Source of the DNA: Halostagnicola larsenii XH-48 | GTDB lineage: Archaea > Halobacteriota > Halobacteria > Halobacteriales > Natrialbaceae | Assembly: GCF_000517625.1 (NCBI RefSeq) | Contig: NZ_CP007055.1 | Location: 1,550,001 to 1,614,000, forward strand | Reading direction: 5' to 3' | Length of the DNA: 64,000 nt | Part shown: positions 27,670 to 56,094 of the stretch, piece by piece | Layout: every line of letters starts with the position of its first letter | Position numbering within the stretch: the stretch's first letter is position 1 | The notes under the pieces: generated by a model | Databases searched by the model: none | What the model was told of the DNA's origin: nothing | What the model saw: only the letters and a program-made list of their open reading frames with translations | Position numbers and translations under genes: made by a program

Positions 27670-29205
27670 TCAGTTAACTATACCCAATTTCCTCATGTAC
27701 GGTCTGACGTTTTCGTAGTAAAATTCCTTGTCCTCGTCCTCAAACCCAAACATTACCAATAGAGTGACGAATACAAGAAGTCCTGAGGTTGACCCAACGA
27801 CGAGGAGCACGTATCCAGTGAGATAAAATTCCAAACCCAACATAACCGGAATGGTAAGTATTCCAGCGAAGACTGGTTTCCAGAACTTTGTAGAATAGGG
27901 GATCATTCCTTCGAAATGCCAGACTTCTACTACTCTGATCACGTTGATCATTGCAAGTGACCCCGCTGTTGCGACTGCTGCACCGATAAAACCGAACTCG
28001 AGGATCAATACGTAATTCAATACGACATTCGAGACACCAAGCGTCCACTGGTTTGCAAGGTTTAGGTATTGGTGGTCCGTCATCATCAATAAAAACCCAC
28101 TCGGTCCGACTAAGCAATTTGTTAATTGTGCTACTGCAAACAAAATTAGCACAAATGAGCCGGTTGAAAATCCTTCTCCAAATATCTGGAGTACTTCCTG
28201 ACTAAACACGATGACTGCGAGAGCTGGTGGTATCACAATCGTGAATGTCCATCGAGTGAGAATTTGATAGATCTCCTCAAGTTCTTTCCGCTCGCCATTC
28301 GAATGCAGATCAGATGCAACAGGTGGGAATAGCTGGTTGATGCCAGACAATGGGAGGGTTAGAAACGATGTCATCAGTACCGATATGCGATAGATCCCAA
28401 CAGCCGATCCCGTTAAAAAGAAGCCGACCATCAGTATGTCGACTCGTGTGTAGAGCTTACTCCCCAAATCTTTGAATGTAAGTGGAAGTGAAAAGTTGTA
28501 GAATCGACGAAAGCTTCCACTCGATAGGTCCCCTGTTGGGCGAATATCCGTTTGGTTATACAGAATCGAAATTGCCACACTGAATGTGAGAACTGTTCCA
28601 ACGGCTAGCGCTGTTACCACCCCGACGAGTGAAAACCCAAATACGAATGCGACTGCCACAATAGCGATTTGTATAAGTGGTTTAGTAAAATCTTGAACTA
28701 TAATCTGCAACTCGACTCGTTCCAATCCACGGAAGATGGCACCCGTGAGATTGATAAGGGTATTAAAGGGAAGAGCAATTGCGAGGATTCGAAGTATAAT
28801 CACTAACTCGGGTGTGCTTAGAGTGAAACTATTGACTAAAGGTGCCAAAATGTATAGCCCAGCACTGATGAGGATACTTGCGGCCAACGCGGTGAGATAG
28901 GCTATTCTAACTGTCCAGTCGCGACGGGGGGGATTATCTGAGTGTTCTGGAAGAAATCGTAGTATAGACTTGCCTGTACCGAGGCGAGCAAACACCATGA
29001 AAAACTGAATCAACGTTTGGGCGTAGGTATAGACGCCATATAGCGTCGCACCGAGCACTCGAGTCAAAAGCAGATTGAATACAAACTTTAAGCCTTGCGA
29101 GGTGATTTTCCCACCAAAATGTAATGACGCCCCTTGGGAGATGACTTGAAGTGATCTGCCACTATTTACGTTTTTTTGAGACCCGTCCTCGGTTGTTTGA
29201 TCCAT
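27670..29205 (-). CDS. Polysaccharide flippase (Wzx/MATE-like MOP superfamily)
   Basis: A 511-residue membrane protein with 12-14 helices, of the oligosaccharide flippase family (SLHFGGKITSQGLKFVFNLLL near the start, then GVYTYAQTLIQ). It would flip lipid-linked glycans to the outer face, the role of AglR-like proteins in haloarchaea. First gene of the AT-rich island and last in a minus-strand run after the phosphatase-like and FkbM genes, 29 bases from its upstream neighbour. Confidence 0.9.
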   Translation of the reverse strand: MDQTTEDGSQKNVNSGRSLQVISQGASLHFGGKITSQGLKFVFNLLLTRVLGATLYGVYTYAQTLIQFFMVFARLGTGKSILRFLPEHSDNPPRRDWTVRIAYLTALAASILISAGLYILAPLVNSFTLSTPELVIILRILAIALPFNTLINLTGAIFRGLERVELQIIVQDFTKPLIQIAIVAVAFVFGFSLVGVVTALAVGTVLTFSVAISILYNQTDIRPTGDLSSGSFRRFYNFSLPLTFKDLGSKLYTRVDILMVGFFLTGSAVGIYRISVLMTSFLTLPLSGINQLFPPVASDLHSNGERKELEEIYQILTRWTFTIVIPPALAVIVFSQEVLQIFGEGFSTGSFVLILFAVAQLTNCLVGPSGFLLMMTDHQYLNLANQWTLGVSNVVLNYVLILEFGFIGAAVATAGSLAMINVIRVVEVWHFEGMIPYSTKFWKPVFAGILTIPVMLGLEFYLTGYVLLVVGSTSGLLVFVTLLVMFGFEDEDKEFYYENVRPYMRKLGIVN

Positions 29206-31227: not shown

Positions 31228-31461
31228 GTTTACTGCCGTTCGGTCATAACTTATTAGTTAATCGTTGTGGTGGCTTTTATACTGAGTTTATGGACCAGTT
31301 CTACAAAGACGAACTGCAAGATAGATACAAACCATAATAAAGGTCACACCTTAATATGCGGGATACAAGCAATTCCCATACGTTGAATACCGTATTAGGG
31401 AGTGAATCAAAGAACACAGTATACAGTCGATCTTCGGCGATCCAGTCTGAAAGAGTTCGAA

Positions 31462-32388
31462 ATGAAATCAACAGAGCAAGAAATTACAAGGCCTACTGTT
31501 TCGGTTATCATTCCGTCATACAACCGCTTTCGGCGAACGCAGCGTTCAGTGGATTCGGTTGCACAACAATCGTATCCAAATATTGAATTAATAGTAGTAG
31601 ATGATGGATCTGACCGCGAACTCGAGGAGGTATTATCTATCCCCGATGATGTCTTTACGCAGTATTATATAATTCGACATGAAGCGAACCGTGGGGCAAA
31701 TGCGGCCAGAAACACAGGTGTGAGGTCAGCAAGTGGGAAATATATCTCATTTTTGGATTCAGATGATGAATTCCATGATGGGTATCTCGAAACGGTCGTA
31801 AATACTTTCGAAAGCACTTCCCCAGATTGCGCCGGTGTTTATACCTCATACGTCATGGTCTATGACCAAGGTGATGATTCTATAAGTGAGGTGATAGAAG
31901 GAAAGACAGTCATAGATGACATAATAGTCAGAAATAAAATTGGCTCGTTTTCCTCTGTGACAATAAGGCGAGATATCCTTATTAGACTTGGTCTATTGGA
32001 TGAATCGCTGCCATCAAAACAAGACTACGACATTTATTTGCGGATTCTTAAAGAAGGATACTTTCTCTATGGCGTATCAGACCCACTTGTTAATCATCAT
32101 ATCCATGAAAACAGGATATCCTCCGATATTAGCGCAAAAAAGGCTGGTAAATCTAAATTGTATGAAAAGCATTCAGATATCCTTGACAAGCGATGGTTAT
32201 CTAATTCCTTACTCACTGAAGGATTTCAAATGGCTAAACAAGGAGATATCCATAACGCCCGACGGAAATTTTGCCGAGCCATCAGGAACAACCCTAAGAA
32301 TATCAGAGGATATCCTCTTTTATTCCTATCATTATTTGGATCCCAAGCGTTCCAGAATGCTATTAAGCTTGTTCATAGATGGCAGTAA
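31462..32388 (+). CDS. Glycosyltransferase family 2
   Basis: A 308-residue GT-A-type transferase: VSVIIPSYNRFRRTQRSVDS at the start, VDDGSDRE, then GANAARNTGVRSASGKYISF and the metal-binding LDSDDE near residue 98. It adds one sugar from a nucleotide donor to a lipid-linked glycan. A GTG at 31402 is possible, but the family begins just before VSVIIPSYN, so I prefer the ATG at 31462. The 3' third is very AT-rich. Confidence 0.88.
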   Translation: MKSTEQEITRPTVSVIIPSYNRFRRTQRSVDSVAQQSYPNIELIVVDDGSDRELEEVLSIPDDVFTQYYIIRHEANRGANAARNTGVRSASGKYISFLDSDDEFHDGYLETVVNTFESTSPDCAGVYTSYVMVYDQGDDSISEVIEGKTVIDDIIVRNKIGSFSSVTIRRDILIRLGLLDESLPSKQDYDIYLRILKEGYFLYGVSDPLVNHHIHENRISSDISAKKAGKSKLYEKHSDILDKRWLSNSLLTEGFQMAKQGDIHNARRKFCRAIRNNPKNIRGYPLLFLSLFGSQAFQNAIKLVHRWQ

Positions 32389-35437: not shown

Positions 35438-36538
35438 TTAGACATCCTGCGCGAGTTCTCGATACGTCTGTTGATACTCGCGAGACATACGAACTGCACT
35501 AAGATGATCTGTAGCAACAGTTCGAGGCGCCGCTGTCTCTTTCTCGACGAGTGAACCAAGGGCGGTTGCAAGACCGGAAACAGATCCAATTTCGAATTCA
35601 GTGCCTACGTCACCGTACTGGAGGATCTCTTTGTGTGGTTGGATGTCTGAGAGGCAGACAGAGAGGCCGGATGCGAGTGCTTCCATCACTGAATTTGGCA
35701 ACCCTTCAGATTTTGATGCCGAGACAAAGAAATCGCTCGCTTGGAGGTACGCAGCCACATTGTCAACCCACCCCTCGAAAAAGACGCGACTAGTATCCTG
35801 AATCGCGTGTTCGCACTTCTTTCGTAGTGGGCCGTCACCGAGTAGTACGAGATAACCGTCGTCGCTGAGACTACTTTGGGAAAAGCCGCGGACAACAGTT
35901 ACTGGATCTTTTCGTTCTATCAAGGATCCCACAGAGATGATGATTGGCCCATCGGTTGGCAATCCCAGTTGCTCACGCCGATTCTGTGTTTCAGACGGAG
36001 TTACAGGAGTATACGAGGTCGTATCTACTCCGTTTTGAATTGGAGCCGCATCAATTCCATGCGGCTGCACTGCCTGGGCTATCGTCTCCGAACAAGCAAC
36101 CGGGTACTGCAGCCGTTTCAATATATTTGTGTGGAGAACGGCCATCGGCATCCCTTTCTTCTGTCCGTACTTTGCAGGATAATCATCGAAGGCGTAGTTT
36201 CGAATTGTTGTAACGTGGGGGTGCCCAGAGACGAACGCAGTGACCAGTGTATCTGCTCTGATACCCTGTGTGTGAATTATATCTGGATCGTACTCGTTCA
36301 CAGCATTCCGAAGACGAACTGGCCCTATTAGAGCTCCTTTGACTCGAGACAATCCAAGCGTCTCGTATTCAATATCTAGCTCACGAAATCGAGCAAGTTC
36401 TGAATCCTCTGGTTCAGGGGACAGTGTTAGTATCCGGGCATTGAACTCCTCGCTCAAATTTTCGAGTAAGTAGTAGAGTTGATTCGTGGGTCCACTCTGG
36501 CGGAGCGTCGAAACGATGTAAAGGAGATCAATGGCCAT
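35438..36538 (-). CDS. Glycosyltransferase family 4
   Basis: A 366-residue GT-B transferase. N-terminal domain: AIDLLYIVSTLRQSGPTNQL, then IIHTQGIRADTLV. C-terminal nucleotide-sugar domain: IISVGSLIERKDPVTVVRGF, LLGDGPLRKKCE and the E-x7-E type motif SEGLPNSVMEALASG. Adds a sugar to the growing lipid-linked glycan. Third-position base use is intermediate between island and host. Confidence 0.92.
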   Translation of the reverse strand: MAIDLLYIVSTLRQSGPTNQLYYLLENLSEEFNARILTLSPEPEDSELARFRELDIEYETLGLSRVKGALIGPVRLRNAVNEYDPDIIHTQGIRADTLVTAFVSGHPHVTTIRNYAFDDYPAKYGQKKGMPMAVLHTNILKRLQYPVACSETIAQAVQPHGIDAAPIQNGVDTTSYTPVTPSETQNRREQLGLPTDGPIIISVGSLIERKDPVTVVRGFSQSSLSDDGYLVLLGDGPLRKKCEHAIQDTSRVFFEGWVDNVAAYLQASDFFVSASKSEGLPNSVMEALASGLSVCLSDIQPHKEILQYGDVGTEFEIGSVSGLATALGSLVEKETAAPRTVATDHLSAVRMSREYQQTYRELAQDV

Positions 36539-39780: not shown

Positions 39781-39801
39781 CTAGATGCGATAAACTCCAA
39801 T

Positions 39802-39879: not shown

Positions 39880-39963
39880 TGGGAGGTGGATTCTCGAGTC
39901 ACCGGTTATGTTATTCGGTTCAAAACGACGTTCGAGGTGAAAGTCTGTCGTCCAGACACACCG

Positions 39964-40421
39964 TCACAGGGCCCGTGTGTCTCCCCAGTGGGCCGAACTC
40001 GAGAAGTCCCGACGAGCAACCAATGTAGGGGCTCGAAGGCGGTAGCAAACCGATCCGACGAGGACCAGCGCAGCGACGCCCGGCCACACCACTGACAGCG
40101 CCACGTCATCCGCCTCGGCGGTCGACTCGAGCGACGCGACGCTTACCGCGTCGCCGCCCGCAACTGGCAGCGTCTCGCTCGTCGACTCGAAACCGGGGGC
40201 CTCGATGGTCACCGTGTACTCACCGGCTTCCAGGGCGACAGTCCCAATCCCGTCGGCGTTTGTCTCCGCGGTGTGCTCGCCGATCGTGACGGTCGCCTCT
40301 GCAATCGGATCCCCGTCAGCATCCTCGGCAGTGGTGGTCGCGGTGTGTTCGTCCGCGTCGCCGGTGGTGAGCGTCTCGGTCGCGGTGTCGGTCACCGTAA
40401 GCGCGACCTCGTCCCTCACTC
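39964..40421 (-). pseudogene. C-terminal piece of an exported protein with carboxypeptidase-regulatory-like domain
   Basis: The frame encodes a Thr-rich region, one beta-sandwich domain (AEATVTIGEHTAETNADGIG, LEAGEYTVTIEAPGF) and a C-terminal membrane helix (VWPGVAALVLVGSVCYRL), but no signal peptide or natural start. The open frame continues to 40503 with a protein that has lost haloarchaeal character, because from about 40422 the DNA belongs to a different gene on the other strand. So the 5' part of a larger surface protein has been lost. Confidence 0.7.
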
Positions 40422-40903
40422 CGACGAGATGTCGATGGCGTCGCGTCGGCGACGATCGACGCGGGGACGGGACGGTGCGAACTGGTCGCCTCCACTCCCA
40501 CACCTGAGGGGCTGCTGGCCGAACGCGGGAGCAGCGTTCTCGACACGGTCGTCGATCACGGACGGGTGACCGTCACGGTCGTCTGTCCCGAAGGCGGGGG
40601 CGTCAACGCGCTCTCGTCGTCGCTCGAGGAACAGTGTCCCGACGCTCGCGTCGGTTCGATCCAGCCGAACCGACATCCGACGAATACGACGACGGTGGGT
40701 GATCTCCTCGTGTCGATGACCGACAAGCGACGATAGGCGGTCGAACTCGCCTACGACTCCGGGTACTTCGAGCGGGCGCGGGAACACAACACCACCGAAA
40801 TCACCTCCAATTCGGCGCCTCTCGAGCGACGTTCACACAGCATCTCCGCGCGGTCGAGCGACAACTCCTCTCTCGAGTCTTCGACTCGAGCACCCTCGTC
40901 TAA
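40422..40903 (+). pseudogene. HTH_10 (bat-like) regulator with nonsense and frameshift mutations
   Basis: The frame reads through the family's middle domain (GVASATIDAGTGRCELVAST, VVDHGRVTVTVVCPEGG, PTNTTTVGDLLVSMTDKRR) to a TAG at 40734, where CAG (Gln) is expected. It then continues AVELAYDSGYFERAREHNTTEI until a single missing base near 40811 shifts the frame; the next frame gives GASRATFTQHLRAVERQLLS and ends at TAA 40901. The N-terminal part is missing. Clear dead copy of the family at 3721 and 21070. Confidence 0.85.
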
Positions 40904-40992
40904 GGCTTCTTTCTCGCGAAATTTGGCGTCATCACTGTACAAGCTCAGCAATGTACAAGCAGACCATCGTTTGTTGACGAGGTGTTTGCGTT

Positions 40993-41007
40993 GCAAAGTT
41001 ACTTTGC
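40993..41007. promoter_or_regulatory. Palindrome 1 before ABC operon
   Basis: GCAAAGT-T-ACTTTGC, a perfect seven-pair inverted repeat with one central base, 41-55 bases before the permease ATG. Good candidate for the binding site of the winged-helix protein encoded last in the operon. Confidence 0.6.
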
Positions 41008-41009
41008 GC

Positions 41010-41025
41010 CACAAACTTATTTGTG
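41010..41025. promoter_or_regulatory. Palindrome 2 / TATA region before ABC operon
   Basis: CACAAA-CTTA-TTTGTG, a six-pair inverted repeat whose centre (AACTTATTT) is itself TATA-like, 23-38 bases before the ATG. A protein bound here would compete with TBP. Confidence 0.55.
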
Positions 41026-41047
41026 AGAGGGTATCGATCCAACTGGT

Positions 41048-41899
41048 ATGAGCGCCGAGAACCATCGTGGCCCACCTACAGGTCGCTTCTTCGAACAGAC
41101 CACCGGGTTCGCCGTCAGATCCCTTCGAACGCTCAGACGAAACGGTGCCGTCGTCTTCTGGGCGGTGGCGTTTCCGGCGATGTTCTATCTGATGACGGTG
41201 TACCTTTTCATCGATACCAGCACACTGTCGGCGGAGGTGGCGAGCGTCGTCAAGGCGACCAACGCGATCTCCTACGGGACGTTCGCAGCGCTGATCGTGT
41301 TCCTGAACACGTTCTCACAGTCGCTGGTCGACGACGTTGAGGGGGGTCGGTACGCGCAGTTTCGAGCGCTTCCCGTCCTCCCGAGCGCGGACTTCTTCGG
41401 GCGGTTCGCGGCCGCTTACGTGTTCGCACTCGGCGCGGCCGGCGCGGTCCTCGGCGTCGGGTGGGCTACCGGCGCGACGTACGGCACTCAGTCGGCCGGT
41501 TCCATTCCCGTCGCGCTGTGTAGCTTGTTCGCACTCGGCCTGTTCGCTGCGAGCCTCGCCGTCGTTCTGGTCGCGGCTGTGCCCGAAGCGAAATTCGCTA
41601 GCATCATCGCCATCAGCGTGGTCATGATCGCGTTCTTCCTTACCGGGTACAACGGCATCCAGCCTGGCATGGTCGCTTCCAGCGCGGAGTTCGTCAACTA
41701 CGTGCCGAACGCGCTTGCCACTCGGCTCGCGGTGTATCACCTCGTTCCCGTCGGTGACTGGACCCAGGCCGGACTCGCCGCACCGAGCGCACCTGTCTCA
41801 CCCGTCTTCGTCGCACTCCTCGCGGCGTACGCCGCAGCTGGGGTCGGCGTTGCCGTGTTCGCAACTCGACACTCGCTGTATCGGGGTGAAATCAAATGA
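41048..41899 (+). CDS. ABC-2-type transporter permease
   Basis: A 283-residue membrane protein with six helices of the ABC-2 type (first at about 35-57, last near 255-275), the membrane half of an ATP-driven exporter. The helix after the cytoplasmic N-terminus carries VVFWAVAFPAMFYLMTVYLF. Its stop overlaps the ATPase gene start (ATGA), so both are made together. Exported compound unknown; drugs or lipids are typical. Confidence 0.9.
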   Translation: MSAENHRGPPTGRFFEQTTGFAVRSLRTLRRNGAVVFWAVAFPAMFYLMTVYLFIDTSTLSAEVASVVKATNAISYGTFAALIVFLNTFSQSLVDDVEGGRYAQFRALPVLPSADFFGRFAAAYVFALGAAGAVLGVGWATGATYGTQSAGSIPVALCSLFALGLFAASLAVVLVAAVPEAKFASIIAISVVMIAFFLTGYNGIQPGMVASSAEFVNYVPNALATRLAVYHLVPVGDWTQAGLAAPSAPVSPVFVALLAAYAAAGVGVAVFATRHSLYRGEIK

Positions 41900-42792
41900 G
41901 CGTCGACACGCCCGCTATTGAGGCACGTAATCTCCGCAAGGAATTCGGTGATGACGGCATCCTCAACGGTATCGACCTCGCTGTACAGGAGAACGAAGTT
42001 CTGCTGTTGATGGGGCCCAACGGCACGGGAAAAACGGTCCTGCTATCGTGTCTCGCTGGGAGTCTCAATCCCACCGCCGGAGACGTTCGCGTGTTCGGCG
42101 ATCCTGTGAGAGAAGACGGCGGCCACAGCCTCTCGCTGTTGTTACAGGGCGGGGCGAGTGTTGACAGTCTCTCCGGCCGCGAGACCGCGGCGTTCTACGC
42201 GCGACTCCACCCCGCGTTCACGGACCGGTGGCGCGATCTCGTCGACGATCTCGGGCTCGCAGATGACCTTGACAAGCGCATCAAACACTACTCCGAGGGC
42301 ATGAAACGGAAACTCGAGCTTGCCCTCGCGCTCGCTATCGATACCCCGCTGTATCTTCTGGACGAGCCCACCGCCGGCGTCGACCTCTCGATGGTACAAC
42401 GGTTCCACCGCGCCATTCGGGACCGAGTCCGAGACGGTGGGACAGTTGTTACGACGAGCCACCGACCTGTCGATGCGGACCTCGCAACGCGTATTGCGTT
42501 CGTAAACGACGGTAGCATCACCGCTGTCGGGACGCCCACGGAGCTACTCGACGGCGTGCCCCCGGTCGTGCGCATCGTGGGTGCCGGCTCGGATACCGAG
42601 ACGCTCGAGTCGCTCGTCGCCGATGGCACGCTGTTCTATCACGGCGACGAACGTCGCGGCTTTCTCGCTGACGGCATCACGTCTGCCAGTCTCGAAACGG
42701 CGACAGGTACCGGCGTGACCGCCGAAATAGTCGAACCGAGCTACACCGACGCGTTCAACTATTACGTGCACACAACACGGACCAATGAGTGA
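41896..42792 (+). CDS. ABC transporter ATP-binding protein
   Basis: A 298-residue ATPase with all motifs: Walker A GPNGTGKTVLL (about residue 37), signature YSEGMKRKLELAL (about 134), Walker B LYLLDEPTAGVD (about 153) and the switch His in TTSHRP (about 192). The last 75 residues are an extra beta-rich domain as in drug-export (CcmA/DrrA-like) subunits. Partner of the upstream permease. Confidence 0.95.
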   Translation: MSVDTPAIEARNLRKEFGDDGILNGIDLAVQENEVLLLMGPNGTGKTVLLSCLAGSLNPTAGDVRVFGDPVREDGGHSLSLLLQGGASVDSLSGRETAAFYARLHPAFTDRWRDLVDDLGLADDLDKRIKHYSEGMKRKLELALALAIDTPLYLLDEPTAGVDLSMVQRFHRAIRDRVRDGGTVVTTSHRPVDADLATRIAFVNDGSITAVGTPTELLDGVPPVVRIVGAGSDTETLESLVADGTLFYHGDERRGFLADGITSASLETATGTGVTAEIVEPSYTDAFNYYVHTTRTNE

Positions 42793-43405
42793 GGACATCG
42801 AACCCGCGGATCTCCAGCGCGACCTTGATCGCATCAAGGACGCGATGGGTATCGCGGAACGCTACGAAAACGCGCCCGAGCAATGGCTGTTGTTCGGCGT
42901 ACTGATCGCCGTTGGCTGTGCGCTCTCTCAGTTCGTCGTCCTCGAGCGCCTCCCGGGCTACTGGTTTTTCGTGATCTGGTTCGGGTTGTTCGGCGCGTTC
43001 GGTGGGGCTCTCTACTGGCGGTCCGACAGCCGCTCGTGGGGACCCGGAAGCGAGGCTCCGAACGTCGGCTTTCAAATCCTCGTCGTGTACGCCGGGGCGT
43101 TCGCGGTCCAGTTCGTCACCGCGCCGTTCCTTCCGGACCTCGGCTACCTTTCGATGACCGCCTACGTGCTCGGCCTCGTTCTCGTGATGCTCGGGATCGC
43201 GTACGTCGTCGCCGGGGAGACCCTAAAGGCCTACCACATCCGCGACCGAGACCGATACGCGCTCCACGCCGGCGGCGCCCTGATGGCCGGTCTCGGCATC
43301 GCCATCCCGAACGTCGAACCGCTCCACGAGTGGGGGTTCGCGGCGTTCGGCCCGCTGTATCTGGTGTACGCGACAGTAACCTATCTGATGCTGACGAGAA
43401 CGTAG
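42785..43405 (+). CDS. Integral membrane protein of the ABC operon
   Basis: A 206-residue protein with a charged N-terminal helix (DLQRDLDRIKDAMGIAERYE) and six predicted membrane segments from about residue 37 to 203. It overlaps the ATPase gene by 8 bases. No family I can name, but its place between transporter and regulator suggests it belongs to the exporter or senses its substrate in the membrane. Confidence 0.8.
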   Translation: MSEDIEPADLQRDLDRIKDAMGIAERYENAPEQWLLFGVLIAVGCALSQFVVLERLPGYWFFVIWFGLFGAFGGALYWRSDSRSWGPGSEAPNVGFQILVVYAGAFAVQFVTAPFLPDLGYLSMTAYVLGLVLVMLGIAYVVAGETLKAYHIRDRDRYALHAGGALMAGLGIAIPNVEPLHEWGFAAFGPLYLVYATVTYLMLTRT

Positions 43406-43691: not shown

Positions 43692-43880
43692 CAGAGTGAC
43701 TGGACTGGGTGCCAATTCCGACAGTAGTCGTTACAGCGGTCGTGCAGGATACAGCGGATGTCTGCACCACGGCGCTCCTGTTTATTCCGCCATCGTTCGA
43801 CTGAATCAGGCGATTGGTAGATGTGCGAAGTTCTCGTAGCCAACGTGAGATACAAGCCCTTGACCCGCGAGTAAGTGAGT

Positions 43881-44312
43881 GTGGAACCATCACATGTGCT
43901 CGTCCCGTTGGATGGCTCACCACTAGCCGACGACGCCCTCGAACACGCACTCGACGTCTTCGACTGCCAGATCACCGTGTTGAACGTCGTGACGCCGCTT
44001 GACGCGGATATGAGCGAAGGCGGTGTTCTGGAGCCGGACGAAGCGCGACTCAATGCGGCACGCACTCGAGCCGACCAGCTGGTCGAGCGTGCCCGCCATC
44101 AGACTGCGGCGAAGGACCGTCCGGTCGAAACGGCTGTCGAAACCGGTGAGCCGGCAGAGACGATCCTCGCGTACATCGACACGACTGACGTGGATCACGT
44201 GGTGATGGGGGGTCATGGTGGTCCCAAGACCGGGGCGCTTCGTCGCTTGCTCGGTACTGTCGCAACGACCGTGGTCGGTAAAGCGCCCGTCCCGGTGACG
44301 GTTGTCCGGTGA
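43881..44312 (+). CDS. Universal stress protein, UspA family
   Basis: A 143-residue UspA domain: HVLVPLDGSPLADDALEHAL at the start, VMGGHGGPKTGALRRLLGT near the end, close to the nucleotide-binding motif. GTG start at 43881 or 43875. The PiT transporter and another UspA protein follow on the opposite strand. Confidence 0.93.
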   Translation: MEPSHVLVPLDGSPLADDALEHALDVFDCQITVLNVVTPLDADMSEGGVLEPDEARLNAARTRADQLVERARHQTAAKDRPVETAVETGEPAETILAYIDTTDVDHVVMGGHGGPKTGALRRLLGTVATTVVGKAPVPVTVVR

Positions 44313-44332
44313 ATTTCGTGGTTGAATATCAC

Positions 44333-45535
44333 CTACGCAATCCCAAGGAGCGTCGAGAAGAGTCGGTAGAGTCCAAATCCGATCCCGATAGAACTCGCCA
44401 GTGTGAGCAGCCAGAAGATGATCGTGGTGGTGATTTTCTGGCGGGAGACACCGGCAGTGCCAGCAGCTAGGCCGCTACCGATCACACCCGAAATGATGAT
44501 ATTGTTGAACGAAATCGGAATGCCGAGCACAATTGCCGTCTGGGCGATGATGAATCCGGGGACGAGCGCCGCAATCGACCGGCGAACGCCTAGCTGTGCG
44601 TATTCACGCGAGGTTGCTTGCAACAATCGGGGAGCACCCATCCACGCACCTGCCAGGATGCCGGCTGCGCCGATGATCAGGAGCACAATCCCCGGCAGTC
44701 CGAGTTCGATACCGTACAGCTCCTCGAGCGGTCCTGTCGCGAGTCCGACTTGACTGCCACCACTACTGAACGCAACGATCCCACCGAGGATGAGCAAGAA
44801 CGCTCGGATTCCCTGATCGACGGACTCGTACATCTTTTGTCGCATGAGCCGAAACCCGACAGCCGCAAACACGACCGTGACAGCGACCACTACGACGTCG
44901 ATGCCGGCGACGCGTGGGTTTCCTAGCGTGAGTGATACCAGGTCCGCGACCGATCCCTGCGGACGGTCGGGATGGGGAATCACTCCGAGACGGATATGCG
45001 CGAGGATGCCTGCGACGACAGCTGCCAGGAGCGGTACCCCCACCGTCTCGGGAATATCGTCCCGGCGAAGGAGTGTCGCCGTGAGAAAGGCGAGTCCACC
45101 CGATGACGGTGGGACGAGCACCCAGAACGTTCCGATCCGGCGATAGGTATCGAACGCCGGGGCGCCACCGAGCGAGAGGCCGACACCGACCATTGCTCCG
45201 GTGGTCGCAAACGCCGCCGGCACCGGATACCCCGTGTAGACGCCGAACGACATGAACGTCGCCGCGACCAGTAGGCCTGTCGTTGCCGCGAGCGGCGTGA
45301 TCGTGACGCCGCCGATGAGGTCGGCCCCGACAGTCTCGGAGATGCTGCCGCCTTGCGTAACTGCACCGGCTGCCGCGAGAATCCCGATCAGGAACGCTGC
45401 CTGCATCGTCGAAATCGCATTCGCACCGATTGCAGGGGCGAACGGCGGAGAGTTGCTGTTCGCCCCGAGCGACCACGCCATGAACAGACAGGTCACGGTT
45501 GCGAGGCCAACGAGGGCCCAGAATGCCAGCGTCAC
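44333..45535 (-). CDS. PiT-family inorganic phosphate transporter
   Basis: A 400-residue membrane protein of the PiT family with both repeat motifs recognisable: SLGANSNSPPFAPAIGANAIST near residue 24 and the second half starting about residue 210. It imports phosphate with a cation. Its ATG overlaps the stop of the UspA-like gene (45532-45535), tying phosphate uptake to a stress protein; a similar pairing of PiT and UspA is known in haloarchaea. Confidence 0.92.
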   Translation of the reverse strand: MTLAFWALVGLATVTCLFMAWSLGANSNSPPFAPAIGANAISTMQAAFLIGILAAAGAVTQGGSISETVGADLIGGVTITPLAATTGLLVAATFMSFGVYTGYPVPAAFATTGAMVGVGLSLGGAPAFDTYRRIGTFWVLVPPSSGGLAFLTATLLRRDDIPETVGVPLLAAVVAGILAHIRLGVIPHPDRPQGSVADLVSLTLGNPRVAGIDVVVVAVTVVFAAVGFRLMRQKMYESVDQGIRAFLLILGGIVAFSSGGSQVGLATGPLEELYGIELGLPGIVLLIIGAAGILAGAWMGAPRLLQATSREYAQLGVRRSIAALVPGFIIAQTAIVLGIPISFNNIIISGVIGSGLAAGTAGVSRQKITTTIIFWLLTLASSIGIGFGLYRLFSTLLGIA

Positions 45536-46230
45536 GACTGGTCCCAGAGCCGCTCGACGTACCTAAGGCCCGTTCTACCGACGACGGCACCCGAACGCGC
45601 GAGTAGCACCGTCCGATCAGTCCGATGACTAACTGGCTGCGGGATCGATCCGACAAGTCGGCGTCGAACCGCGCCGTGGCGTGTCGCCCCGAAGATGATC
45701 ACGTCGTAGTCGGGTACTGTCTCAGCGATCGCGTCGGAGACATCCTCACCAGTTTGGAGCAGTGTTTCGATCCGTATGTCCGGACCGGGTGCCTCCTCGA
45801 GCGTCAGTGTGGCAGTTGCGATGTCGTCTTTTGCAGCGTCGGGATCACTATCGGACTCACCGACTGACAGAACGTGAACGGTCGCGTCGTTACGAACGGC
45901 GATGGCTTTCGCCGCCAGTGCTGCTGATGGGACGTGGGGTCCGTCGGCCACTGAGTGACTAACGGACATTTCATGGTCGACAGGGACATCATCTGGAGCG
46001 ACGGTCGTCGCCGCGTCGAGCATCTCCTGGGTATCTCCCGAAAACGTCTCGATAATCATTTCATCAGCGTCCATAGAAAACGGGGAGCCGTGCGGTTTGA
46101 CGATGACAGAAACCATCTTCACTCTCGTATCGAGCAGGCGAGCGAGGTCGCCGACAGCCCGGACGAGTTGTTCAACGTGGTCCGAATTCGCGACTGCGAC
46201 CAGTATCGGCTGGTTCTTCAGTTCGGTCAT
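45532..46230 (-). CDS. Universal stress protein-like, phosphate-transporter partner
   Basis: A 232-residue UspA-fold protein, longer than usual. The N-terminal strand PILVAVANSDHVEQL and late GATRHGAVRRRLVGS fit the fold, but the first Gly-x2-Gly of the ATP motif is broken (GATR), so nucleotide binding is doubtful. The C-terminal 40 residues are extra and basic. Translationally coupled to the PiT gene; may regulate that transporter. Confidence 0.85.
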   Translation of the reverse strand: MTELKNQPILVAVANSDHVEQLVRAVGDLARLLDTRVKMVSVIVKPHGSPFSMDADEMIIETFSGDTQEMLDAATTVAPDDVPVDHEMSVSHSVADGPHVPSAALAAKAIAVRNDATVHVLSVGESDSDPDAAKDDIATATLTLEEAPGPDIRIETLLQTGEDVSDAIAETVPDYDVIIFGATRHGAVRRRLVGSIPQPVSHRTDRTVLLARSGAVVGRTGLRYVERLWDQS

Positions 46231-46486: not shown

Positions 46487-48943
46487 ATGGCCGCAGATCC
46501 CGCCGAGGTCGCAGATAGGGCGGCGCGCTTTTGCGAGGAGCGAGCCGACGGCGAGGAAACCCTCGAGATCCTCCTCGAGACCGACGCCGTCCACGAGACG
46601 TGGACGTTCGACGACCTACCCGTCGATTCAGGCACCTTCGGCGAGCTCGTCTCCCGCGATCTCGTGGCGAAGATCGACGGCGAGTACCGGGTTTCGAGCC
46701 GGGAGGGCGTCCGGGCGGGACTCGAGGGCGAGTCGATCGAAGCCGTCGACGACGAACCGGGCCGCGAGTTCTCGAGTCCGATCGACGTCGACGGGAAAAC
46801 GACGCTTGCGGTCCTCGGATCGCTCGTCTTTCTCGTCGCCATGCGCCTCCTGAACGCCCCGTCAGTGTTCCGCGACGGGACGATCCTCTCGCCGGGGAAC
46901 GATCCCTACTACTATCGCTACTGGATGGAACGCCTGCTCGCCGAATCGAACGGCCCGACCGATATCAGCCTTCTCTCGGAGATGCCGGGTAGCGCTCCTA
47001 ACGTCCGCCCGCTCACCCACGCGACGAACTGGTTCCTCGCGGAACTCGTCGGCCCGGACGCGGTCGCCGCGTGGCTTCCCGTCGTCGCCACCCTGCTTCT
47101 GGGGGTCCTCGTCTACTGGCTCGCCGTGATCGTCACCGACGACGTTCGCGTCGGCATCGCCTCGGTCGTCCTGCTCGCGCTGACGCCCGTCCACGCCGTC
47201 TACTCTGGCGTCGGCTTTCTCGAGCACCGCCTCCACCAGTACCTCTGGCTCGGCGTGACGCTGGTCGCGTTCGCCTGGCTCGCGGTCGATCTCCGCCGAC
47301 GCCGAGCCCGAGACCCCGATCCCGACCGAAACCCGGACCAGCGGCTCTCCCAACCCCTGCGCGATCATCTCCAAGACACCTGGACCTGGGTCGCGGCCGT
47401 CGCGCTCGGGGTCGGACTCAGCTTCTCCGCGCTCGCCTGGGGCGGCTCGGTCCTGATGTTCGTCCCCGCATCGGCCTACGTCGGCCTGAAAGTCGCGATG
47501 GACGCTCGAGACGGGGTCTCTCCCGCGGCCGCCGCCGCACCGATCGTCGCCGGCCTCCTCGTCGCCAGCGCCCTCACTGGGTTCTTGCACTTCCGGTGGG
47601 GCTGGCACGACGCGTTCGTCGCCATCGTTCCCGTCCTCACCGTCGCCGCCACCCTCGTAATCGCGGCTCTCGGCGAGGTCTGGGTGCGACTCGAGTGGCC
47701 GACGGCCGGACTGGTCGGCCTCGAGGTCGTCCTCGCCGCGGCGGGGATCTTCCTCTTCCGACGGCTGCGCCCGGCGGAGTGGGCGCGCCTCGCCGAACGC
47801 GCGGACGATCTCTTCTTCCGGTCGGGATACACCGAGTCCGCCTCGCTGTTCTCGGCCGACCTCGCCGTGATCCACGGCCCGATGTCCCAGCTCGGCATCC
47901 AGTTCTACGTCGCGCTGGTCGTCCTCATCTGGACCTGCTGGGTGGCCTACAAGCGCTACGAACCGGCCTGGTTGCTCTTGAGCGTCTACGTCGTCTTCTG
48001 GGTCGCCATGGCCGCGATTCAGGTTCGCTTCGCCGCGCAACTGGCGGTCCCCCTGTCCGTACTCGGCGGCCTCGGGCTCGTCCACCTGACGGCCTGGGTC
48101 GACTTGGCCCGCCTCCCCGTGCCGTTCCGCGAGGACAGTGAGTCGACTCGAGCGGGCCCACTCGACCGACCGAGCACTCGCGCCACCGACGCCGACGGCG
48201 GCGAGTCCGAACCGAACATTATCCTCCCGACGGACGCCTCGACGGTCGTCTATCTCGGCATCATCGCCCTGATCGTCTGCGGGATGAGCCTGATCTTCGT
48301 CCCCTCGTTGGTCGCCCAGACCGCCCACACCGACGGCCAGTACGAGGTCGCGACGGCGATCGACGACCACGCCGAAGAGATAGACCGGGAGTACCCCCAG
48401 AACTTCGTCCTGAGCGAGTGGCCGGACAACCGGATGTACAACTACCTGGTCAACGGCGAGTCCGACAGCTACGGATACGCGAACGCCTACTTCGACGAGT
48501 TTCAGGCGGGCGACGATCCGGACGGCTGGTACGACCAGTTCCGGAGCGACGACGTCGGCTACGTGGTCGTCGGCGACACCGACGCCTCGGTACCGGACAA
48601 CGCGACCGCCCACCAGCTCCACGACGACCTCGGCACGGGCGGCGAGGACGGTGACGCGCTCGCCCGCTACCAGCTTCTCGCGACGAGCGAGAACACGTCG
48701 GCCTTCGCGGTCGTCCCCGGTGCCACTATCGAGACGGCCACCGACGCCGACGGCCCGGTGACGGTCGCCACCGAACAGCAGATCGACGGCGAGTCGATCA
48801 CGTACGAACGCGAAGTCCAGCCGGAAGACGGCGCTCTCGAGGTAACGGTTCCCTACGCGGGCGAGTACGCGATCGATGGAGAAACGGTCACCGTCGAGCA
48901 AGCCGACGTGCTCGAGGGCAACACCGTCGGTTCGTCACAATAA
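46487..48943 (+). CDS. AglB/STT3-like membrane protein with N-terminal winged-helix-like region
   Basis: An 818-residue protein. Residues 1-85 are soluble and pattern like a winged helix (WTFDDLPVDSGTFGELVSRDLV). From about 108 on come 12-13 helices in the STT3/AglB layout, with GNDPYYYRYW near 139 (first acidic loop motif) and GVGFLEHRLHQYLW near 244 where AglB has a DHH-type motif. After residue 615 follows an outer domain. The catalytic WWDYG motif is replaced by SEWPDNRMYN near 645, and the protein is shorter than typical haloarchaeal AglB. So it is an oligosaccharyltransferase relative with altered chemistry or a different glycan acceptor. Not the standard AglB, as far as I can see. Confidence 0.78.
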   Translation: MAADPAEVADRAARFCEERADGEETLEILLETDAVHETWTFDDLPVDSGTFGELVSRDLVAKIDGEYRVSSREGVRAGLEGESIEAVDDEPGREFSSPIDVDGKTTLAVLGSLVFLVAMRLLNAPSVFRDGTILSPGNDPYYYRYWMERLLAESNGPTDISLLSEMPGSAPNVRPLTHATNWFLAELVGPDAVAAWLPVVATLLLGVLVYWLAVIVTDDVRVGIASVVLLALTPVHAVYSGVGFLEHRLHQYLWLGVTLVAFAWLAVDLRRRRARDPDPDRNPDQRLSQPLRDHLQDTWTWVAAVALGVGLSFSALAWGGSVLMFVPASAYVGLKVAMDARDGVSPAAAAAPIVAGLLVASALTGFLHFRWGWHDAFVAIVPVLTVAATLVIAALGEVWVRLEWPTAGLVGLEVVLAAAGIFLFRRLRPAEWARLAERADDLFFRSGYTESASLFSADLAVIHGPMSQLGIQFYVALVVLIWTCWVAYKRYEPAWLLLSVYVVFWVAMAAIQVRFAAQLAVPLSVLGGLGLVHLTAWVDLARLPVPFREDSESTRAGPLDRPSTRATDADGGESEPNIILPTDASTVVYLGIIALIVCGMSLIFVPSLVAQTAHTDGQYEVATAIDDHAEEIDREYPQNFVLSEWPDNRMYNYLVNGESDSYGYANAYFDEFQAGDDPDGWYDQFRSDDVGYVVVGDTDASVPDNATAHQLHDDLGTGGEDGDALARYQLLATSENTSAFAVVPGATIETATDADGPVTVATEQQIDGESITYEREVQPEDGALEVTVPYAGEYAIDGETVTVEQADVLEGNTVGSSQ

Positions 48944-49382: not shown

Positions 49383-50219
49383 TCAGTGCCCGTAGGCCGC
49401 CAGCGGTGAGTCGATGGCTCGGCGGGTCGCCGGATAGACGATCCCCACCATCGCCCCGAAGACGACGAGCGCGCCCAGGCTGATCCGGTGGAAGTACGGG
49501 ATCGGACGCGAGAGGTCTAACACGAGGCGCATCCAGAGCGGCACGGCGACCGCGACGACCGTCGCCCAGGCCATCACCGCGACCACGACCCCGACGCCTG
49601 CGCCGGGGACCGCGCTCATTACCCGCCACCGGCGGTCGAGCACCTCGAGGACGATCCCGAAAACGCCGCTGGCACCGAGGCTACAGCCCAGGAGGAACAC
49701 CCAGCCGGCGATCGCGCTCTCGCGACCCCACAGCGCGGCCAGCGTCTCCATTCGACCAGCCCAGGTGAATACGAGTCCGACGCCGACGGCCGCGACCACG
49801 CCGGCGACCGCGGCGGCGTACCCCGTCACCAGCGCTCGAGCCAGCAGGTGATTCCACGGCGACCCACTCCCTCGACGGCCGTGCTCGCCGACAAGCGATG
49901 CGCTCGTAAAGCAGGCGACGGCACCCACGAATCCCGTGACGGCCGCGCCGGTACTCAACAGCTCTCGAGTCGCGAACGCGGGTTGGTCGAGCGCGTGGTG
50001 GGCGGCGAATAGGTTCGCCCACCGCGAGCCGTGAAGCGTCGCCAGTTCGGTCTGAAACACGGGCGTCGCGTAGTTAACGTCCGGAAACATGCCCCAGAGA
50101 CCGCCGATCGCGACGATCCACAGGTGGCGTCGCGTCAGGTGACCCCGGAGCGCGAGCGGCGTCGCTACGAACAGCGCGAGCGTCGCGCCGGCGAGGAAGT
50201 GGACGAGTGAGGGTGCCAT
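49383..50219 (-). CDS. YdjM/DUF457-like membrane protein with C-terminal domain shared with gene 4842
   Basis: A 278-residue protein. The first half begins APSLVHFLAGATLALFVATP and has GMFPDVNY and an AAHHALDQP segment, resembling the metal-dependent YdjM/DUF457 membrane hydrolases with conserved His/Asp. The second half (from about 165) carries GRMETLAALWG, RPIPYFH and LVVFGAMVGIVY, clearly similar to the 164-residue protein at 4842. So it looks like a fusion. The ATG at 50219 gives the family's normal start. Enzyme activity is not shown. Confidence 0.75.
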   Translation of the reverse strand: MAPSLVHFLAGATLALFVATPLALRGHLTRRHLWIVAIGGLWGMFPDVNYATPVFQTELATLHGSRWANLFAAHHALDQPAFATRELLSTGAAVTGFVGAVACFTSASLVGEHGRRGSGSPWNHLLARALVTGYAAAVAGVVAAVGVGLVFTWAGRMETLAALWGRESAIAGWVFLLGCSLGASGVFGIVLEVLDRRWRVMSAVPGAGVGVVVAVMAWATVVAVAVPLWMRLVLDLSRPIPYFHRISLGALVVFGAMVGIVYPATRRAIDSPLAAYGH

Positions 50220-50421
50220 CGATGACCGTGCAGGGGGAACTGCGATTGAACGCACCTACCTCGGGCGCGGTATTAAACGGCGGGACTTCGTCTCGGGTTC
50301 GAAGAATCGTCGACACGTGCCGCCCGTCTACCTCCTCGAGCGAGTTCCAAAAGAACGAAGCCGGATTTCTCTGGGTACTCGAATCACAACACAGCGTACC
50401 GGCTTCGAACCCATAGCGCCA

Positions 50422-51873
50422 TCAGCTAGAAATCGTCTCCCAGGTGTCGACACACACTTTCCAGACCTGGCGCAACACGATCTTCAGATCGAACCAGAAC
50501 GACTGGCGGCGGATGTACTCGAGGTCGTAGCGCAACTTCGCGTCCGGCTCCGTGCTCTTGGCGTCGTTGATCTGTGCCAGCCCGGTTAGACCGGGTTTGA
50601 CGAACCACCGCTTGCGCCACGACGCCGTTTCGCGCTCGAGTATCTGCTCTTCGTCGGTCCAGGCCGCTCGCGGGCCGACGACGCTCATTCGTCCCAGCAG
50701 GATCGCCATGAGCTGTGGGAGTTCGTCCATGTGCGTCTTTCGCAACACGCGTCCGACTCGAGTGATGCGGTCGTTTTCCCCGTCTTCGGCGGGTGTTGCG
50801 GACTCGCCTTCCTGTACCATCGTCCGGAACTTCGAGACGGTAAAGGTCTCCCCGAGGCCAGCGGTTCGCTCCTGGCTGTAGAGGATAGGGCCGGGACTAT
50901 CCAGCCGAATCGCCGCGCCGATGAGGACCATCAGCGGGGCGAAGACGACGAGTCCGACGAGGGCAAACACCACGTCGAACAGCCGTTTGAACACGGAGTC
51001 GAGCGGATCCCACGGCTCGAGGTCGATGTCGACCAGTTCGCCGAACTCGCCCTCCGAAACGAGCACGCTGTCGGCGTACTCGCGGTGAACCTTCGCGTCG
51101 ACTCCGTGTTCGAAACACGCGTCGAGCGCCCCGAAGAACTCCGCCCGATCGGGCTGGTGAAACGCCAGCACCACGGTATCGACGTCGTACTCGACGAGCA
51201 CGTCTTCGATGCGCGAGAGTCCGCCGAGTCGGTCCAGATCGGTGAGTTCGTCGTACTCGAGGAGGAGTCCGTCGCCCGTCTGGATTCCGCCGTCGGGAAC
51301 GGCCTCGATCGCGTCCAGTTCCCCGTTCTCTACCAACTGGGACGAGAGAATGTTCGTCGGACAGAGATAGCCCAGGATCGGTCCCTCGAGTTGCGTCGTA
51401 ATCTGTTTGATCTGGTCCGGATCGTCGCCCACGAGCAGCGTTCGACCCGAGTCGCCGGGCGGTCGGCGTCGCATCGAGACGAACCACAGCGGCATCGCGA
51501 CCGAGAGCAATCCGACGACCATCACGAGAGTCGCTCGAGGCAGTCGGTGCGACCACTTGAAAAAGCCGAACGTCGCGATGGCGAGTCCGCCGGTTACCAC
51601 GCGTTTCTGGGTGAGAAAGATCGTATCGAGCACGCGTCGCGGCCGGGGTTTATAAAGCGGCAGCAGACAGCCGATCATCACGAACGAACAGAGACCGACC
51701 GCCCACAGAAACATGGGACCGGTAAGCGTTTGCTCCTCTAATCGATTGAATACCGGAACGTACGTCGTAAAGAGGTGCTGGAACTCTGGATGGTTCGCTA
51801 CGAGCACGGAGACGACGGTAAACGCTACCACTCCGGCTGCACTGACGATCCGATAGCGCCACCCAGTTACCAT
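50422..51873 (-). CDS. Polyprenyl-phosphate sugar-phosphotransferase (WbaP/exopolysaccharide initiating enzyme type)
   Basis: A 483-residue membrane enzyme. Residues 15-125 contain four helices, then a Rossmann-like domain (LVGDDPDQIKQITTQLEG), then the bacterial-sugar-transferase domain from about 290: KRLFDVVFALVGLVVFAPLM, GPILYSQERTAGLGE, TVSKFRTM and the late GLTGLAQINDAKST. It transfers a sugar-phosphate onto a lipid carrier and so starts glycan assembly; it could feed the island at 27.7-39.8 kb. Promoter stretch GTATATAACACC lies just upstream. Confidence 0.92.
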   Translation of the reverse strand: MVTGWRYRIVSAAGVVAFTVVSVLVANHPEFQHLFTTYVPVFNRLEEQTLTGPMFLWAVGLCSFVMIGCLLPLYKPRPRRVLDTIFLTQKRVVTGGLAIATFGFFKWSHRLPRATLVMVVGLLSVAMPLWFVSMRRRPPGDSGRTLLVGDDPDQIKQITTQLEGPILGYLCPTNILSSQLVENGELDAIEAVPDGGIQTGDGLLLEYDELTDLDRLGGLSRIEDVLVEYDVDTVVLAFHQPDRAEFFGALDACFEHGVDAKVHREYADSVLVSEGEFGELVDIDLEPWDPLDSVFKRLFDVVFALVGLVVFAPLMVLIGAAIRLDSPGPILYSQERTAGLGETFTVSKFRTMVQEGESATPAEDGENDRITRVGRVLRKTHMDELPQLMAILLGRMSVVGPRAAWTDEEQILERETASWRKRWFVKPGLTGLAQINDAKSTEPDAKLRYDLEYIRRQSFWFDLKIVLRQVWKVCVDTWETISS

Positions 51874-53526: not shown

Positions 53527-56094
53527 ATGAATTCGAATCCGCCAACGAATCCGCCAGCCACCCTCTCCAGAGTCACCACAATGTTTGCGAACGTCTGGTC
53601 CCGGTCGATCCGGTCGCGTCGTGTGTCCGAGCGTACGAAACACGCCCTTGTAGGGTTGATCGTGTGTTTCGTGGTACTCGGAACGGTTGTGGGTGCCGGC
53701 GCTGGTATCGGCGTGGGGGCGACAGCCGACGACACCGAAGAATCGCGAACAGCGTTCACTGGTTCAACGAACGAAACGGCGGTCTCACTCGCACAGGAAT
53801 CAGGACCCCAAGATGACTTCGTAGTCGTCCGGCCGGGGAACAATATCCTCGTAAGCGGAGAATCAGTGAACGAAACGTCTACTCAGGGATTCATAACGCA
53901 CGAAATCAATGGCGAAGACGAGTACCTCATCGTCGGATCGTCGTTCGGAAACGAACGCCTCGAAGTGGGCGGACAGCTAGTAGAAGTCGACGACAATACC
54001 GACGACACTACCTATATCCAGCGTGTGGACGGTTCTCCGGACCTAGAGACCACAGATGGAGACCAGATCGAAGTGGACCCCGACGATGGTGGCAAACTCA
54101 AAACGGCGTCGGGAGATGACATCGTCGTCAATACTGGGGACGGGAACGAGGTACTCACGTACGATCAGTACGATCAGCCGATTCTCGAGATCGAAATAAC
54201 GAAGGTCAACGATCCGGCCGAGGGAGAGAATCTCGTCGTCAATACGTCGATCACCAATCACGGCTACGATAATTACGCCGGCGATCGAACCGTCTCGTGG
54301 AACGGTGAGTCGAAGACGGCACCTGTAAACGTAAACCCAGAATCACAGGTCAACGAGTCGTTCGTCTTCGAAACAGAAGATGGCGATAGTTCAGCCGGTC
54401 AAGTCGAATTCGACGTGGGCGAGCAATCCGTCACACAAGACGTCGACATCGAGGAGGCGGAAATTCTCATCAGCGACTTCGGGACGACCACAGCGGTCGC
54501 TGGTGATGATATCCTGATTGGGGCCGAGTTCGAGCGTATCGGTGACGTGCCGGTCGAAGACATGACCGTCGAGTTCACCGTTGGAAACGAAACCGTCGAA
54601 ACTGACTCCCTCGAGATCGACCCCGGTGATACGGAAGACGGCGAAATATCCTACGAAACGAGTTCCAGCGACGTTCCGGAACTCGATGTCGGCGTCGAGA
54701 TTCCCGAACTGGGCCTCTCGAACGAGACAACGGCGACCGTCGTTTCCAAAGACGACCACGAGGAGAACATGAACGTCGAGATCCCTCCTGACGAACTCGA
54801 GATCGGGAACTTCAGCGAGGAACTCGAGGTCACCGGCGAGTTCGAGTACAACGGCGAGGAGATTCCAAACGGGGAGACGGACGTTCCAACTGAATTCCTC
54901 GTCAACGGAACCGTCGTCGAAGAACGGGACGTAACGATCGACGAGTCGCCCTTCGAGGAAACGTTCACCTGGGAATTCAACGAGAGCACGATGCCGATCG
55001 AGAACGTCTCCCTGCGGACGCCCAGCGGGGAGAACGTGACCGAGTTCGACCGAGACCTAGACATCGAATTCGAGGAGTTCAACGAGACGTTTTCCTCGAA
55101 TGAACCCCTCGAGGCGACGGTACGCGTCGAAAACAACGGCGAAGTGCCGGAGTTACAGAACCTCTCCGTGGGCGTCGAGGACGCGGATAACGTGGCTTCG
55201 AACGTGACGCAGACGCGCGAGTTCTTGCTCAACGAATCGGAATCGATCGAGGAAACGTTCTCGTTCGATCTGACAGCGAACGCGTCCTCAGGAATCGAAC
55301 TCGTCGCGAACACGACCACCGTCTCCGAGAACGTGACGGCGAACCGCTCGGTGTTCGAAGCGAGCGACCTCGAGTTAGACGGCGCGTCGAATCCGCGTTC
55401 GAATCTAACGATGTCCGGGAACATAACCAACATCGGCGACCTCGTAGACACACAGACCGTCCAGTTCGTGCTCGACGGGGAGACGGTCTTCGAGGAGGAA
55501 CTCACGCTCGAGTCGTCCGAATCCGAGACCGTCCTGGCCGATATCGAACCGCCCGAAGAAAGCGGCGAGTATACGTACGGGATCACGACCAACAACGAGT
55601 CGTTGAACGCCTCCTCGGCCGTCGAACGGAGTGCGACGATCGAAGGGATGGCCGATCAGGGACTGCTCGATCGGATCACCCCGCTCCATCTCGGAGTGCT
55701 CGTGCTCGGACTGCTGGCACTAGTGGGTATCCTGCTGGCCTACCAGAACAATCCGGGGGCGTTCCGATCGCGCGCCGCTGCACTCACGGCCGGCGCACAG
55801 GGTGCAGTGCAACGCGTTTTCGGCGGCGGTGACACGATCGTCGTCGAGAACGGTCTGTCGCGCGACGCGACGGTCCGACTCCGGGTTCGGGACTCGAACG
55901 AGGTCGTCTTCCTCGAGGATCTGACCCTCGCGGACGGCGAGCAACGCGAGTTCAAGTGTCTCCCAGACAGCGACGAGTTCGAGGTCGGTGCCGGCGTCGA
56001 CGATATCGACTCCCACGCCCAAGTGTTCCAGACGAAACCCAACGGCGTCGGCGTCCGCCTCGAGCCGGACGGAATCCGAATCACCGAACAGTAA
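53527..56094 (+). CDS. Large exported, membrane-anchored protein with CARDB-like domains
   Basis: An 855-residue surface protein. A basic stretch then a signal/anchor helix (HALVGLIVCFVVLGTVVGAG, about residues 38-60) leads into an outer region of several CARDB-like beta-sandwich domains with many N-x-T/S sites, e.g. VNTSITNHG, VTNRS-like and EVPELQNLSVGV. One more helix (LHLGVLVLGLLALVGILLAY, about 718-737) is followed by a cytoplasmic beta-rich tail of 115 residues. An ATG at 53581 is an alternative start. Likely N-glycosylated; role unknown. Confidence 0.82.
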   Translation: MNSNPPTNPPATLSRVTTMFANVWSRSIRSRRVSERTKHALVGLIVCFVVLGTVVGAGAGIGVGATADDTEESRTAFTGSTNETAVSLAQESGPQDDFVVVRPGNNILVSGESVNETSTQGFITHEINGEDEYLIVGSSFGNERLEVGGQLVEVDDNTDDTTYIQRVDGSPDLETTDGDQIEVDPDDGGKLKTASGDDIVVNTGDGNEVLTYDQYDQPILEIEITKVNDPAEGENLVVNTSITNHGYDNYAGDRTVSWNGESKTAPVNVNPESQVNESFVFETEDGDSSAGQVEFDVGEQSVTQDVDIEEAEILISDFGTTTAVAGDDILIGAEFERIGDVPVEDMTVEFTVGNETVETDSLEIDPGDTEDGEISYETSSSDVPELDVGVEIPELGLSNETTATVVSKDDHEENMNVEIPPDELEIGNFSEELEVTGEFEYNGEEIPNGETDVPTEFLVNGTVVEERDVTIDESPFEETFTWEFNESTMPIENVSLRTPSGENVTEFDRDLDIEFEEFNETFSSNEPLEATVRVENNGEVPELQNLSVGVEDADNVASNVTQTREFLLNESESIEETFSFDLTANASSGIELVANTTTVSENVTANRSVFEASDLELDGASNPRSNLTMSGNITNIGDLVDTQTVQFVLDGETVFEEELTLESSESETVLADIEPPEESGEYTYGITTNNESLNASSAVERSATIEGMADQGLLDRITPLHLGVLVLGLLALVGILLAYQNNPGAFRSRAAALTAGAQGAVQRVFGGGDTIVVENGLSRDATVRLRVRDSNEVVFLEDLTLADGEQREFKCLPDSDEFEVGAGVDDIDSHAQVFQTKPNGVGVRLEPDGIRITEQ

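Follow-up and report, generated by a model that had tools for sequence, protein, structure and literature searches.

A widespread haloarchaeal family of WWDYG-less AglB paralogues, candidates for a second oligosaccharyltransferase

In the oligosaccharyltransferases (OSTs) PglB and STT3, the WWD of the WWDYG motif binds the Ser/Thr at position +2 of the acceptor site; AglB has been described likewise, and its residues D47 and E360 hold the amide of the acceptor Asn (PMC7226087). Asn-2 of the Halobacterium salinarum S-layer protein carries a repeating, GalNAc-linked glycan, which is dolichol-pyrophosphate (DolPP)-derived and bacitracin-sensitive (PMC2952790, PMC6591318, PMC8674786). The Ser of this site is dispensable, Val, Leu or Asn being tolerated in its place; sequencing of the Halobacterium genome revealed 'only a single oligosaccharyltransferase gene', and the Asn-2 glycan was left without explanation (PMC2952790). 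The Asn-2 transferase is known only as an activity, and AglB, being promiscuous, could itself serve this second H. salinarum glycan (PMC6591318). Another haloarchaeal system, the Agl15 (low-salt) pathway of Haloferax, uses an AglB-independent OST that has not been identified (PMC3871713, PMC8241124).

The DNA analysed here is a 64,000-nucleotide stretch of the genome of Halostagnicola larsenii XH-48 (contig NZ_CP007055.1, positions 1,550,001 to 1,614,000), hereafter called the window. An open reading frame on its + strand (46487..48943, ATG start) encodes a non-canonical STT3/AglB-like protein of 818 aa, whose close homologues begin at an aligned Met. The same genome encodes a separate canonical AglB of 1015 aa with the motifs GVDSYYH, LDHH, TIQE and WWDYG (G000:C1:483292). 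One genome scan yielded 13 named relatives of the 818-aa protein, the closest of them from Halostagnicola (82% and 69% identity), and a profile built from these was run over 392 Halobacteriales genomes. This search revealed members in 208 genomes, representing 60 of 95 genera. In a phylum-wide search, strong full-length matches were found only in Halobacteriales; outside this order, two genomes gave matches, which were limited to the membrane core and only of the level expected for AglB. Canonical AglB was also present in all 40 genomes examined, and therefore the WWDYG-less protein is an addition to it. The 818-aa gene is thus a member of a haloarchaeal family of AglB paralogues and not a single-gene quirk. 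Text searches of a library of freely accessible papers found no description of this family, which is widespread and apparently undescribed.

Several family members carry C-terminal extensions of 200-600 residues (e.g. L051:14965-17913, L054:11956-15021, L066:8570-12772, L086 and L088), which in Haladaptatus are LamG-like. Because of these extensions, automatic naming misses the STT3 core, and plasmid-borne copies are named 'STT3 domain-containing protein', 'hypothetical protein' or, if extended, 'LamG-like' at NCBI. Some genomes (G140, G315, G184 and G338) encode two members, and the second copy in the first of these (G140:C1:2937861-2940290) contains three in-frame stops.

The preliminary description of this gene, made without database searches, had recognised an STT3-type membrane plan and the first acidic motif, and both were confirmed. 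The 818-aa protein matched TIGR04154, the model for ArtA-associated AglB, with an E-value of 1e-35, though with a score (123 bits) far under the 450-bit NCBIfam cut-off, and as a single sequence it gave no match in a PDB search, so that profiles were required. The family profile aligned with A. fulgidus AglB (3WAJ/5GMY) at E 1e-30, over GNDPYYY/GNDPWYY, GF-DHH/GFNDHH, GIAE/TIAE, QxRFA/QNRFA and the C-terminal peripheral domain, and hhalign of the family against 41 haloarchaeal AglBs gave E 4e-42 (probability 100%). AglB (7e9s) was also ranked first by Foldseek (E 2e-12), where the C-mannosyltransferase DPY19 was among the fold matches (E 0.001). Since the full-length AlphaFold model used was poor (mean pLDDT 59), no active-site geometry is claimed. 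DPY19 and PglB share the STT3-type fold but have other acceptors or other domains and are more distant by score.

The first transmembrane helix of the core comprises residues 103-127 (46793..46867, + strand, as all further features of this gene) in the structure model. It is followed by the first acidic motif, GNDPY (residues 137-141; 46895..46909), in which D139 corresponds to D47 of A. fulgidus AglB; within GNDPYYYRY this Asp is found in 77 of 77 family members. The Glu of external loop 5 (E450, equivalent to AglB E360) lies in YTESAS (residues 448-453; 47828..47845) and is kept in 76/77. The catalytic Asp and Glu are, judged from these alignments, retained across the family. The invariant Arg-Phe shared with AglB is located in RFA (residues 514-516; 48026..48034), and the protein ends with a beta domain (residues 740-808; 48704..48910) related to the AglB peripheral domain L1, as indicated by a match to 3wai and by the sole Pfam match of the protein, AglB_L1 (PF18079; E 0.003, under the cut-off). 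The 818-aa protein thus resembles AglB in its membrane core, first acidic motif, loop-5 Glu, RF and peripheral domain, but differs from it in the absence of WWDYG, an extra front of 85 residues, a shorter C-terminal half, another gene neighbourhood and, within its clade, an altered second acidic motif. In this second metal-site region (Y...LEHRLH, residues 239-250; 47201..47236), R154/D161/H163 of AglB correspond to Y239/E246/R248. The R/D/H set is exactly as in AglB in 30 of the 77 members (about 40%), whereas proteins of the clade of the 818-aa protein have Y/E/R or Y/D/Q, with His or Tyr two residues on. As the His of this Natrialbaceae clade is changed to Arg or Gln, and the preceding Asp often to Glu, metal binding could be weakened; nothing else speaks as strongly against ordinary metal chemistry in these proteins as this altered motif.

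The WWDYG position is occupied by SEWPDNRMYN (residues 643-652; 48413..48442), as judged from spacing and the family alignment. WWDYG occurs in none of the 77 family members but in every one of the 41 canonical AglBs compared. At the same position each of the 77 members has S-x-W-x-x-N-R-x-x-N or a closely similar form that varies at S, N or R; the refined family motif is S-x-W-[G]-x-N-R-x-Y-N. The replacement already proposed in the preliminary description was thereby confirmed: the RF pair is separated from SEWPDNRMYN by 124 residues, and from WWDYG in AglB by 128. The Asp within SEWPDNRMYN was considered as a counterpart of the WWDYG Asp and was rejected, since it is present in only 39/77 members. 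The equal spacing, the V-[LM]-S-x-W context common to the family and AglB, and the invariant second Trp (W645) would suit a general alternative AglB, which would use a divergent WWDYG to transfer dolichol phosphate-linked glycans to ordinary N-X-S/T sites. Such a role is nevertheless improbable, given that WWDYG itself is found in no member, that canonical AglB always accompanies the family and that the gene neighbourhoods differ sharply, as described below. WWD has been replaced by a strictly conserved motif, which argues that the acceptor pocket was rebuilt and did not merely decay. Because the lost WWD is the holder of the +2 Ser/Thr, a relaxed sequon is expected: sites outside the N-X-S/T rule would be accepted, or another anchoring residue would be used.

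The second peculiarity of the protein is its N-terminal domain (residues 1-85; 46487..46741), predicted to lie on the cytosolic side. Described initially as about 85 soluble residues in front of the core, it was found in every family member and ranks with the best-conserved parts of the protein, with W39 and V55 each present in 77/77 sequences; a chance or mis-called start was rejected on account of this conservation. AlphaFold2, run with an alignment from which plasmid-derived rows had been dropped, folded it with a pLDDT of 88 in the order H5-18, H22-35, H48-56, E60-63, E66-69, H72-80. This H-H-H-E-E-H order is winged-helix-like, and many of the weak Foldseek matches were winged-helix proteins (MarR, MotA, ArsR, PrfA, CARF-nuclease), but none was significant (best E 0.23) and no convincing Pfam match was found. 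The winged-helix reading of the front was thus upheld as to the order of its elements and not as to a recognisable relative, and the DNA binding suggested along with it is unsupported. The combination of a normal WWDYG elsewhere in the protein and a front with no winged fold, an outcome contrary to the preliminary description, was looked for and did not occur.

A clearer relationship emerged when the front profile was run over the proteins of the source genome, where it matched only one other protein (E 2e-8), an EMC3/TMCO1-like (DUF106) insertase of 316 aa (PF01956, E 4e-38). Matches to six distinct insertases of three genera ranged from E 1e-9 to 1e-11, and profile-profile comparison (hhalign) of the front with the insertase N-terminal domain gave 27% identity and E 5e-12. 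The same domain is present in the insertases of Haloferax and Halobacterium. In both protein types this 85-residue domain precedes a membrane helix, although the membrane part of the insertase is unrelated and its gene is located outside glycan clusters, between adenylate and cytidylate kinase genes (named by eye from the sequence). These profile comparisons establish homology between the front and the N-terminal domain of haloarchaeal insertases. As a separate observation, haloarchaeal EMC3/TMCO1-like insertases have this extra N-terminal domain (L162:4406-5356, L160:5009-5881, L163:4329-5249), and apparently one more membrane helix as well, in front of the Oxa1-type core.

The winged-helix-like order of the front and the changed metal site of the Natrialbaceae clade could be taken to indicate a non-catalytic paralogue acting as a sensor or regulator through this domain, an idea voiced in the preliminary description. 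This is highly improbable, because D139 and E450 are retained almost without exception, the R/D/H site is exact in a substantial part of the family, and the front is not regulator-specific, the insertase being the one further homologue that the genome encodes. A DNA-binding regulator or sensor was accordingly rejected, in view of the retained catalytic residues and the lack of a significant match of the front. TMCO1 is reported to be part of a eukaryotic ribosome-Sec61 complex (PMC7505659), and this makes docking at an insertion site a reasonable guess. The front shares ancestry with the insertase domain; its most likely role, a tentative one, would be to dock the protein where membrane insertion/translocation takes place, or on a partner common to both.

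The genomic context of 59 family loci, within a reach of 8.5 kb, was set against that of 39 loci of canonical AglB and of 40 random regions; both comparison sets were mostly drawn from the genomes that supplied the family loci. A phosphoglycosyltransferase gene (Bac_transf) was present near 30/59 family loci and near none of the AglB loci (0/39) or random regions (0/40); the Fisher p-value of about 4e-9 is, like the others of this comparison, descriptive, as the loci are related by descent. At family loci it often directly adjoins the family gene in the same orientation, and at 29 of the 59 it was not found within 8.5 kb. Genes for NTP-transferases (27/59 family, 5/39 AglB and 1/40 random loci) and epimerases (19/59, 3/39 and 0/40) followed the same trend. 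UppP/BacA was found near a minority of family loci (8/59, and 0/39 and 0/40 for the other sets), as were S-layer genes (5/59, p 0.07). Flippase, family-2 glycosyltransferase and sulfatase genes were commoner near AglB, and plasmid copies of the family are located near flippase, rhamnose or S-layer genes. Enzymes of the Bac_transf type produce sugars linked to polyprenyl pyrophosphate, and the pyrophosphate carrier is recycled by UppP.

In the window, a phosphoglycosyltransferase of this type (PF02397) is encoded at 50422..51873 (- strand) and is expected to start glycans on DolPP. A gene between it and the STT3-like gene (49383..50255, - strand) encodes a membrane protein that has no Pfam match and is a neighbour in 7 of the 59 family loci. 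Upstream, a dense glycan-assembly cluster (27670-43405) encodes, as judged by domain matches, (i) a flippase-type protein (Polysacc_synt; 27670..29205, - strand), (ii) a Wzy/O-antigen-ligase-type membrane protein (PF04932; 32408..33679, - strand), which may be a repeat-unit polymerase, and (iii) several glycosyltransferases, among them one of family 2 (31402..32388, + strand) and one of group 1/4 (35438..36538, - strand), as well as an FkbM methyltransferase, a sulfatase and an ABC-2 transporter pair. Immediately upstream of the STT3-like gene (43875-46230) there are two universal-stress-protein genes and a gene for a PHO4-type phosphate permease, apparently unrelated to glycans, and an 855-aa protein encoded at 53527-56094 has only a weak aerolysin-like match (E 0.01, under the cut-off).

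These data can be combined into a scheme in which the linked phosphoglycosyltransferase, by analogy with its enzyme family, would start the glycan on dolichol phosphate to give a DolPP sugar. Neighbouring glycosyltransferases would extend it, and the glycan would then be flipped and, in some species, polymerised. Outside the cell, the STT3-like protein would move it to Asn of S-layer-type surface proteins via the conserved Asp/Glu site. We regard it as an even chance that the 818-aa gene encodes such a second, haloarchaea-specific OST, transferring DolPP-linked glycans to S-layer-type proteins with no need for a +2 Ser/Thr. The special acceptor suggested in the preliminary description gains support from the retained catalytic residues, the conserved replacement of WWD and the glycan-assembly and S-layer neighbours; the insertase homology, the large family and the DolPP-pointing neighbourhood had been missed there. 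A related possibility is that DolPP-linked glycans are transferred by the STT3 fold to an acceptor other than Asn, i.e. to Ser/Thr, to a lipid or to a surface polysaccharide (as a ligase or polymerase). The loss of WWD takes away the element that reads N-X-S/T, relatives of this fold with other acceptors exist (e.g. DPY19, mentioned above), and the family neighbours are general polysaccharide genes. We nevertheless consider a non-Asn acceptor unlikely, since both residues that contact the amide of the acceptor Asn in AglB (here D139 and E450) and the AglB-type peripheral domain are retained, and some clusters already have Wzy/ligase-type proteins.

A locus that favours the second OST proposed here is that of a Halobacterium genome (G064), whose species name was inferred from a match to an H. 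salinarum plasmid (100% identity over 5.5 kb). In this genome, 3.3 kb separate the family member from an upstream S-layer gene of the PGF-CTERM type, and the family member is followed by the UDP-HexNAc genes for GlmS and two GlmU-like proteins and by a phosphoglycosyltransferase gene. The encoded S-layer protein reads A-N-A-D, with no Ser/Thr at +2, after the presumed cleavage site, which we placed from the known protein. The AglB of this genome and a Haloferax AglB share 48% identity; the published figure for H. salinarum is 47% (PMC6591318). Among four family-positive Halobacterium species, an Asn-2-type S-layer start was present in three and absent from one, a small survey that is suggestive only. 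An H. salinarum-type S-layer protein was found in 4/4 family-positive and 1/9 family-negative species (p 0.007, in a small and phylogenetically linked sample). The DolPP donor, dispensable Ser, GalNAc link and S-layer acceptor of the Asn-2 glycan fit the WWDYG-less family, for which a DolPP donor, a relaxed sequon, a HexNAc start and an S-layer acceptor would be expected. The family, whose sequences and loci point to each of these properties, is a good candidate for the Asn-2 transferase, as a hypothesis; this link is limited, as one Halobacterium genome and a small survey stand behind it. It is possible, though on the whole doubtful, that the family constitutes a second class of archaeal OSTs that transfers DolPP-linked repeat-unit glycans free of the N-X-S/T rule, is docked through an insertase domain and provides the Asn-2 enzyme of Halobacterium.

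The Agl15 pathway of Haloferax, as mentioned above, also has a vacant place for an OST. However, 15 Haloferax genomes (recognised via a Haloferax plasmid) contained no full-length family member, the matches there being limited to canonical AglB and to the front of the insertase; the family was rejected as the transferase of that pathway, a role whose likelihood is practically negligible.

A conserved AglB paralogue that lacks the Ser/Thr-reading motif and is linked both to an enzyme starting pyrophosphate-bound sugars and to an S-layer gene makes the Asn-2 puzzle directly testable. If the proposal is true, it would describe a natural way of relaxing the sequon, and a domain common to the glycosylation and membrane-insertion machineries. 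In another Halobacterium genome, a frame-broken remnant of a family member lies between two S-layer (csg-type) genes (L161/L149, G095:C1:214016-214499), and an intact copy is located about 50 kb from it.
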